Source: Desulfuromonas sp.
Lineage (GTDB): Bacteria; Desulfobacterota; Desulfuromonadia; Desulfuromonadales; BM501
Direction of reading: 5' to 3'
NCBI RefSeq assembly: GCF_002868845.1
Contig: NZ_PKUB01000056.1
Coordinates: 363-64,362, forward strand
DNA: 64,000 nt
The number at the start of each line of letters is the position of its first letter. Positions within the stretch are counted from its first letter, which is position 1. A program made the position numbers and the translations under genes. Under the pieces are notes generated by a model. That model had not been told where the DNA came from. It worked only from the letters and a program-made list of their open reading frames with translations, and did no database searches. Shown in pieces: positions 2,837 through 64,000 of the stretch.

Positions 2837-2864
2837 ATAATACTAAAATTGTCGGGTTTTGCAA
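2837..2864 (-). promoter_or_regulatory. Probable sigma-70 promoter for sco-coxA-coxC
   Basis: On the minus strand a TTGCAA -35 (2859-2864), a 16-base spacer and a TATTAT -10 (2837-2842) lie about 70 bases upstream of sco in an AT-rich patch. Nothing else between the two divergent genes looks as good. Not verified by mapping. Confidence 0.45.
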
Positions 2865-2939
2865 TGTCTGCTTGTCTTTTGGGGCTTGTGCGGTGGGGGC
2901 AAACGTGGCATCATGCGCGCCCGCAAGGTGGAGAGGTCC

Positions 2940-3191
2940 ATGGTCCAGGAACACGACATCGTCGCCATATTCAATTCCATCCACCGGGTGATGAAGGCCG
3001 AAAAGGCCCTCAAGCTGGCCCGGGTCGAGATCCTGCTCATTCCCGTGCCGCGCCAACTCTCCTCCGACTGTGGCCTGGCCATCCGGTTCGCATCGGAAGA
3101 CCGGCGGCGGGTCGAGGAGGTCCTGACCCGCGAAGGGATCGGCCAGGCCGATTATTTCCGCCGGGAGGGGGAGGGGTTCGGCCCGGCTTGA
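2940..3191 (+). CDS. DUF3343 family protein, putative Se/S carrier-like
   Basis: An 83-aa soluble protein of the DUF3343 family, annotated in databases as putative Se/S carrier proteins. The family hallmark is the short motif around Cys44 (LSSDCGLAI) following a beta-alpha start and a PVPR turn (36-39); the cysteine would carry the chalcogen. The ATG at 2940 is chosen because GGAG lies 6-7 bases upstream; earlier in-frame ATGs would add a tail not seen in the family. A selenium role is inference, but the same window encodes SelB and a selenocysteine-containing SelD. It sits alone between sco and ffh. Confidence 0.75.
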   Translation: MVQEHDIVAIFNSIHRVMKAEKALKLARVEILLIPVPRQLSSDCGLAIRFASEDRRRVEEVLTREGIGQADYFRREGEGFGPA

Positions 3192-62049: not shown

Positions 62050-62082
62050 TAAAAAGGCGATCCGGTCGGATCGCCTTTTTTT
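62050..62082. terminator. Bidirectional terminator between batD and selD
   Basis: AAAAAGGCGATCC-ggtc-GGATCGCCTTTTTTT. It serves both convergent operons. Confidence 0.92.
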
Positions 62083-62099: not shown

Positions 62100-63140
62100 T
62101 TAAACGATCTTCAGCTTGCCGGCCGGCCCTTCCTCGACCTGTCCGACGATCCAGCAGGGAACATTCTCGCCCTGCAGTCGGGTCATCAGGGCTTCGGTCT
62201 TGGCTTCGGCCACGGCCATGAGCAGGCCCCCGGAGGTCTGGGGGTCGGCGAGGATGTCGAGCCGCTCGGGAGCCAGTTTCTCCCCGTCGACCACCTTGGG
62301 GAGGTAGTGCTCGCGGTTGTTGTAGCTGCCGGCGGGAATCAGGGCCATGGTGAGCATCTCCTCGACTCGCGGGTAGAGGGGCAGCGCCGCGAAGTCGATC
62401 GCCAGGCAGACGTCGCTCGCCTCGGCCATCTCCTGGGCGTGGCCGAGCAGGCCGAAGCCGGTGATGTCGGTGCAACAGGAGACGCCGACCTCCATCATGA
62501 TCTCGGCGGCCGCCTTGTTGAGGGTCGCCATCCCGGCGATGGCCTCCTGCAGGTCGCTTTCCTCGATGACCCCGCCTTTGAAGGCGGTGGCCAGGATGCC
62601 GGTGCCAAGGGGCTTGGTCAGCACCAGGCGGTCGCCCGGCCGGGCGCCGACGGTGGTGACCATTTGGGCCGGATCGACCAGGCCGGTCACGGCCAGGCCG
62701 AACTTCGGCTCCTCGTCGTCGACGGTGTGCCCCCCGACGACCACGGCCCCGGCCTCGAGCACCTTTTCCGCGCCGCCGATCAGGATTCCGGTCAGCACCT
62801 CCCGGTCGAGGCAGGGCGGAAAGCCGACCAGGTTGAGGGCGGTGACCGGCCTGGCGCCGACGGCGTAGATGTCCGAAAGGGAGTTGGCTGCCGCGATGCG
62901 TCCGTAGGCGATCGGGTCGTCGACGATCGGGGTGAAGAAATCGACCGACTGCACCATGGCCAGGTCGTCACTGATCCGGTAGATGCCCGAATCGGCGAAG
63001 GGGATGTCGGCCGAGAGGAGGTTCGGATCGTCGTATTTGGGTAGCCGGCACAGCACCTGTGCCAATGGCCCGGGGGCCATTTTGGCTGCTCACCCCGAAG
63101 ATCGGGACAGGCTGGTCAGGCGGATTCGCTCTTCGGCCAC
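62100..63140 (-). CDS. selD: Selenophosphate synthetase SelD, itself a selenoprotein (UGA = Sec17)
   Basis: Makes selenophosphate, the selenium donor for selenocysteine, from selenide and ATP. Reading from the GTG at 63140 (AAGGAG 7 bases upstream), the protein is 346 aa and starts MAEERIRLTSLSRSSG-Sec-AAKMAPGPLAQVL. The TGA at 63090-63092 falls exactly at the catalytic Sec/Cys position of SelD, three residues before the essential Lys20, and the frame is open on both sides. A simple ORF call would begin at the ATG 63080, inside the active site, and lose it. Downstream motifs (DDLAMVQSVDFFTPIVDDP, GGHTVDDEEPKFG, DITGFGLLGHA) are typical. Directly downstream of selB. Confidence 0.95.
63062..63092 (-). 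promoter_or_regulatory. Candidate bacterial SECIS element of selD
   Basis: Beginning 4 bases after the UGA, the mRNA can fold CCAA-(AA)-TGGCC..GGCCA-TTGG, a stem within the coding sequence with its apex about 15-20 bases from the UGA, as required for SelB recognition. Confidence 0.7.
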
Positions 63141-63176
63141 GGGGATCTCCTTCAAGTTGTTGGGTCGGCGGGCGCG

Positions 63177-64000
63177 TTACTTCCCGGGATCCTCTTTGGG
63201 CAGTTTCCAGGCGACCCGCTCGTCGCCGCGGCGCATGGTGTACTTGAGACCGTCGAAGTGCTCGAGGATCCCCTGGGTCTGCTTGCGGGCGCTGCCGATC
63301 ATGTCCCGGTAGTCGGGCAGGATAAGGGTGTCGTGCTTTGCGAAATGGTCGATGAGGACCTGCAGGGCCCGGTCGTAGGTCTCCTTGTGGAAAAAACTTT
63401 CGTCGTTGAGCTTGACCAGTCTTCCCATGCCGAAGAGGTAGGCGAAGTAGGGGTCGGCCTTGGAGGACGGCATGCCGAGTTGGGCGAGGGTCTCGTTCTT
63501 GTTCTTGGCCATCGCCCCGGCCTTGCGGTAGGCTCCCTCGAGGCGTTCCAGGTCGAGGGTCTGCTCTTCGGTCGGCTCCGGCGTGAAGCCGGGAATGCAA
63601 AGCCCTTCGCCCCGCTGCTGGAGGAATCCCTCGGCGACCACCTGGCCGAGGAGCTTTTCGTAGGCCTTCGGCGAGACCTTGCGGGGCAGCGCTCCCTTGA
63701 GGGTGGCGTGGGGGATGCCGGGGATCAGGGGATTCTCGGCGTGGAAGCGCTCCGTCTCTTCGAGGAGGCGGTGGCGCCAGGCGACGAGGGCCTGGCCGAC
63801 GACCCACTGATCGACCATCTGGACGATCTTCTTTTCCCCCTCCAGCTCCTTGAGGTTGGCGGTGATTTTCTCCTTGCCCATCCCGGAGACCGTTTCGAGT
63901 TCCTTGGCGGTGATGCACTGCTTGTCGAGGATCTTCTGCAGCAAAAAGGCCTTCTCCCCCGACTCCATCTCGATCAGCGACTCCATGATCTCCTTGCGGA
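63177..64000 (-). CDS. selB: Selenocysteine-specific elongation factor SelB, C-terminal part
   Basis: The 3' part of the gene (274 codons visible); the GTPase domains lie beyond the window edge. The visible sequence is the chain of winged-helix domains that bind the SECIS hairpin (QKILDKQCITAKELETVSGMGKEKITANLKELEGEKKIVQ, GIPHATLKGALPRKVSPKAYEKLL, and the end HDTLILPDYRDMIGSARKQTQGILEHFDGLKYTMRRGDERVAW). An in-frame ATG at 63986 is internal. 36 bases upstream of selD, hence an operon. Confidence 0.93.
   Translation of the reverse strand, partial: RKEIMESLIEMESGEKAFLLQKILDKQCITAKELETVSGMGKEKITANLKELEGEKKIVQMVDQWVVGQALVAWRHRLLEETERFHAENPLIPGIPHATLKGALPRKVSPKAYEKLLGQVVAEGFLQQRGEGLCIPGFTPEPTEEQTLDLERLEGAYRKAGAMAKNKNETLAQLGMPSSKADPYFAYLFGMGRLVKLNDESFFHKETYDRALQVLIDHFAKHDTLILPDYRDMIGSARKQTQGILEHFDGLKYTMRRGDERVAWKLPKEDPGK

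Follow-up and report, generated by a model that had tools for sequence, protein, structure and literature searches.

Selenocysteine (Sec) in SelD is well documented. Sec-SelDs of Geobacter sulfurreducens, G. metallireducens and Desulfuromonas acetoxidans were listed in 2006, and in the same work remnant SECIS-like structures that persist after a Sec-to-Cys change were described (PMC1794560). In one survey Sec was found in 19% of SelDs, always at the position considered here, and bacterial SECIS elements (bSECIS) were found for them (PMC4561486). Sec-SelD is the second largest prokaryotic selenoprotein family, and both the decoding of UGA by SelB and a SECIS and the dependence of SelD on itself are established for this system (PMC13188914). 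According to the bSECIS model, the loop has 3-9 nt with G in the first two positions, the stem has 4-16 bp, the element lies 16-37 nt from the UGA and its energy is at most -7.5 kcal/mol (PMC13188914). Mis-annotation affects such selenoprotein genes generally, as has already been published (PMC4561486, PMC13188914).

The window, i.e. the whole stretch of 64,000 nucleotides analysed here, contains a selD gene on the minus strand in which GTG (63140-63138) is followed by 16 codons, TGA (63092-63090), the residues AAK and, finally, a stop codon at 62102-62100. With the TGA read through, the translation is uninterrupted. The features discussed below are the following:

62100..63140, minus strand: selD coding sequence with GTG start, 346 aa, predicted Sec at position 17 (TIGR00476, E 1.9e-108 over residues 7-314; closest solved SelD 2yye, E 1.3e-72)
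63147..63152, minus strand: ribosome-binding site AAGGAG, 6 nt before the GTG
63090..63092, minus strand: in-frame UGA, predicted Sec codon 17, on the active-site column in alignments to solved SelDs and relatives
63078..63080, minus strand: internal ATG (Met21), the start in standard ORF calling, with loss of Sec17 and Lys20 (mechanical ORF list)
63046..63064, minus strand: bacterial SECIS hairpin with 8 pairs, one of them a closing U-G; its apical loop, GUG, is at 63056-63054 and lies 33 nt downstream of the UGA (fold, covariation, RNAalifold, bSECIS model)
63064..63081, minus strand: hairpin closer to the UGA, AAUGGCC-CCCG-GGCCAUU, not taken as the SECIS (loop and distance outside the model; absent from the RNAalifold consensus)
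63177..64000, minus strand: 3' part of selB, the gene running to about 65105, outside the window (TIGR00475, 390.7 bits, cut-off 242)
62051..62080, minus strand: terminator-like hairpin with T tail at the end of the selA-selB-selD operon (13 pairs; such sites also occur in shuffles)
2859..3191, plus strand: ORF with a Se/S-carrier (DUF3343) domain, next to ffh (TIGR00959) and far from the sel operon (PF11823, E 3.7e-21)

The alignments, gene content and RNA comparisons make it almost certain that this gene encodes a selenophosphate synthetase (selenide, water dikinase) with Sec at residue 17 and that the UGA is decoded as Sec. Against TIGR00476 (cut-off 125) the 346-aa reading reaches 362.4 bits and covers profile positions 1-310 of 311, whereas the reading of 326 aa scores 340.5 bits and enters the profile only at position 16. 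In the best solved-structure match, 2yye, LVRSSGCAAK is aligned with LSRSSGUAAK, and in 3u0o the corresponding segment is YSHGAGCGCK; GUAAK thus stands against GCAAK and GCGCK, and the predicted Sec lies three residues before the conserved N-terminal Lys, as Sec or Cys does in SelDs. As the UGA is aligned with the Cys of both solved SelDs, it falls on the Sec/Cys column. The sequence-only reading, which had proposed a selenoprotein with its start hidden behind an in-frame UGA, was to be abandoned if the UGA missed that column; in the alignment of the 346-aa reading it stands at the Cys of the solved SelDs and of the Cys-type relatives.

Codons 1-16 are coding: relatives with 55-70% overall identity have the block L-T-x-L-S-R-S-S-G-[U/C]-A-A-K, and their start codons lie at the column of the selD GTG or within a few residues of it. 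The GGAG core of the ribosome site is at 63150-63147. The good ribosome site and the GTG-16 codons-TGA-AAK arrangement are thus as previously read, and so is the expected automated call, since the mechanical ORF list has selD from ATG 63080 only.

The machinery for Sec decoding is complete. The gene order is selA-selB-selD in one operon of which selD is the last gene, with SelA at 65536-66633 of the same contig, C56 (E 5.2e-158). The tRNA-Sec gene selC, with anticodon TCA, is at 70593-70684 (Rfam 75.7 bits; ARAGORN) and is adjoined on the same strand by yedF (TIGR03527), the two lying 7 kb from the sel operon; selA, selB, selC and yedF are all on the contig and strand of selD. The genome therefore has selA, selB, selC and selD together with an in-frame UGA aligned with Cys in homologues, which are among the features by which a bacterial selenoprotein is recognized. 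That Sec decoding exists had been deduced from SelB and a DUF3343 Se/S-carrier-like protein in the window. The latter is present, 60 kb from selD and outside the sel operon; SelB is correctly identified, but only the C-terminal part of its 642 aa lies within the window. Absence of selA or selC, which had been named as counting against the proposal, is not what the genome shows. A second predicted selenoprotein was found when the genome was searched for further selenoproteins, in the molybdopterin family only:

Locus L071, contig C40, 9147-10547: formate dehydrogenase alpha subunit (FdhA), whose only in-frame TGA lies at the established Sec site, ARI-U-HSATVAGL

Within the window, no selenoprotein other than selD was found among all in-frame TGA codons; the remaining frames were judged by eye not to be real genes, so that one may be missed.

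The UGA is shared across the order. Among 118 genomes of the same order, the window's own included, 113 have a match to SelD or a related protein, and in about 98 of the 118 one in-frame TGA, and no other, falls on the Sec position of selD; the residue table gives G-U-A-[AG]-K for those UGA-SelDs that were read. Because the same TGA column recurs in about 98 genomes, chance is, as judged from these sequences, excluded as the origin of the UGA. At 80 loci of the genome collection the Sec/Cys column holds Sec in 58 and Cys in 18. SelA is present in 96 of the 98 genomes with UGA-SelD; in the other two, G060 and G064, the assembly is fragmented (about 400 and 200 contigs), and therefore their SelA is probably missing sequence. 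SelA is absent in all four genomes whose SelD is of the Cys type only (G021, G035, G078 and G082). Of these, G021 is the sharpest control:

Locus L047, 9-1040, minus strand: Cys-SelD of G021, a member of a genus otherwise with Sec-SelD; selA and selC are gone, and the SECIS hairpin survives as a relic

Here TGT, a Cys codon, stands in place of the UGA while the rest of the frame matches, the hairpin is weakened (-6.8 kcal/mol), and neither SelA nor tRNA-Sec is found, there being only a 48-bit tRNA match that is seen in congeners too. Two congeners have UGA-SelD, SelA and a tRNA-Sec at 74.6 bits.

Some genomes of the order carry more than one SelD gene. Two different UGA-containing SelD genes lie about 4 kb apart in G026 (locus L056, 837-1916 and 6156-7214, plus strand), and G004 and G046 each have two on separate contigs. 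At L049 (426-1817, plus strand) a Se/S-carrier domain (DUF3343, PF11823; Pfam) is fused to a Cys-type SelD (GGCSAK), and the same fusion is indicated by similar upstream sequence at L048, L050, L051 and L052, all in one family of the order. It occurs beside UGA-SelD in G044 and G066, and alone in the SelA-less G035, G078 and G082. In PMC5322559 DUF3343 is suggested to be a selenium carrier, with which such a fusion would fit; the fusion itself was not found in the passages of the paper that were consulted.

The hairpin downstream of the UGA agrees with the bSECIS model at every point. Its sequence is GGCACAG-GUG-CUGUGCC at 63063-63047, extended to 63064-63046 by the closing U-G, giving 7-8 pairs with an energy of -9.8 to -11.7 kcal/mol and pair probabilities of 0.95-1.0; the loop of 3 nt is the minimum of the model. 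The stretch 63062-63092, earlier proposed for bSECISearch, misses nearly all of this element. RNAalifold on 74 aligned sequences of the order returned this hairpin and no other, and at least 5 of the 7 core pairs are formed in the sequence's own fold in 73 of the 74. The fold of the 51-nt region is not unusually stable compared with shuffles (z -0.98), and therefore single-sequence energy alone would not have revealed the SECIS. With Rfam at gathering thresholds no match was obtained in the window. The hairpin at 63081-63064 was weighed as an alternative SECIS and discarded: it is stable, but its CCCG loop has no G in the first two positions and begins only 15 nt after the UGA, and it is not part of the consensus structure.

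Covariation is seen at the variable pair 32-42 (offsets from the UGA), in which the third base of a codon is paired with the first base of a codon four positions further on. Among 65 distinct sequences of the order the pair is G-C in 32, U-A in 12, A-U in 10, C-G in 8, C-A in 2 and G-U in 1, i.e. Watson-Crick in 62 against 21.8 expected by shuffling, with none of 20000 shuffles reaching 62 when the bases are dealt anew and relatedness is ignored. Traced on a tree built with the hairpin left out, the pair shows about 10 changes of type. The pair is Watson-Crick in 31 of 37 distant Sec-SelDs and in 4 of 7 Cys genes. In the protein, Arg, Cys, Ser and Gly at residue 31 correspond to G, A, U and C as the wobble base of the codon that precedes it by four residues (that of Ala27 in this SelD). 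It is about as likely as not that the SECIS helix, not the enzyme, decides residue 31, which would then be a protein residue drifting under an RNA-pairing constraint alone; its neutrality is putative. No statement that residue 31 follows SECIS pairing was found in a non-exhaustive search of the literature.

These data bear on other explanations of the UGA. It could be a true stop, with SelD being the shorter protein of 326 aa started at ATG 63080 and devoid of the Sec/Cys residue. This frame is what a standard caller returns and both AIRS domains are intact without the extension; nevertheless, such a protein would lack Sec17 and Lys20, and the internal ATG is not general, many relatives having Leu, Ile or Val there. 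Moreover, the codons before the UGA are kept as protein across families, L047 has Cys for the UGA codon, and the covariation of the hairpin has no reason if the UGA terminates. We therefore consider termination very improbable.

An amino acid other than Sec, or a near-cognate tRNA, could also serve in reading through the UGA, for which SPS1-UGA of hymenopterans is a precedent (PMC4561486). With selA, selB and selC complete, with a SECIS that fits the model, and with relatives lacking the Sec machinery having Cys and no other residue at this column, we hold such readthrough to be exceedingly improbable. The present genome is a single assembly of 56 contigs, in which a sequencing error or a pseudogene could be imagined; the recurrence of the same TGA in about 98 separate, independently assembled genomes and a selD frame that is intact throughout reduce this to a vanishingly small probability. 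Decoding of the UGA as Sec is the reading that we favor.

For the present genome we infer the following scheme from its genes and alignments. Translation of SelD would start at GTG 63140, and SelB carrying Sec-tRNA-Sec, attached to the 63064-63046 hairpin of this mRNA, would insert Sec at the UGA instead of allowing termination. Sec17, predicted to lie with Lys20 on a flexible N-terminal loop, would act in making selenophosphate, which would be used by SelA for Sec-tRNA-Sec. As SelA needs selenophosphate for this step, the synthesis of SelD would depend on SelD's own product.

With regard to annotation, standard gene calling removes the catalytic residue from this SelD and probably does so in many relatives. 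Within a single order, naturally occurring Sec and Cys forms go with retained or lost machinery; with the SECIS located as well, they illustrate cleanly how Sec decoding operates and how it disappears. General knowledge of selenoproteins is unchanged by the present SelD. This Sec-SelD is correct but ordinary, because the family, the Sec position and the bSECIS are already published, including for Geobacter and Desulfuromonas, and this group of bacteria has for years been known to have such genes. Compared with published Sec-containing SelDs (TIGR00476; Geobacter, Desulfuromonas), the Sec position, the fold, the machinery and the bSECIS downstream of the UGA are as here and nothing essential differs, the start here being GTG; the SECIS loop, 33 nt after the UGA, is near the far end of the published range of 16-37 nt. 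In E. coli fdhF the loop is nearer to the UGA. The FdhA bSECIS system similarly has a UGA recoded by SelB with a hairpin just downstream, but the enzyme differs. Finally, Cys-type SelDs (3u0o; L047) share the whole domain structure, and L047 also the hairpin as a relic, but they have a Cys codon where the UGA stands here, and the genome of L047 is without selA and selC.
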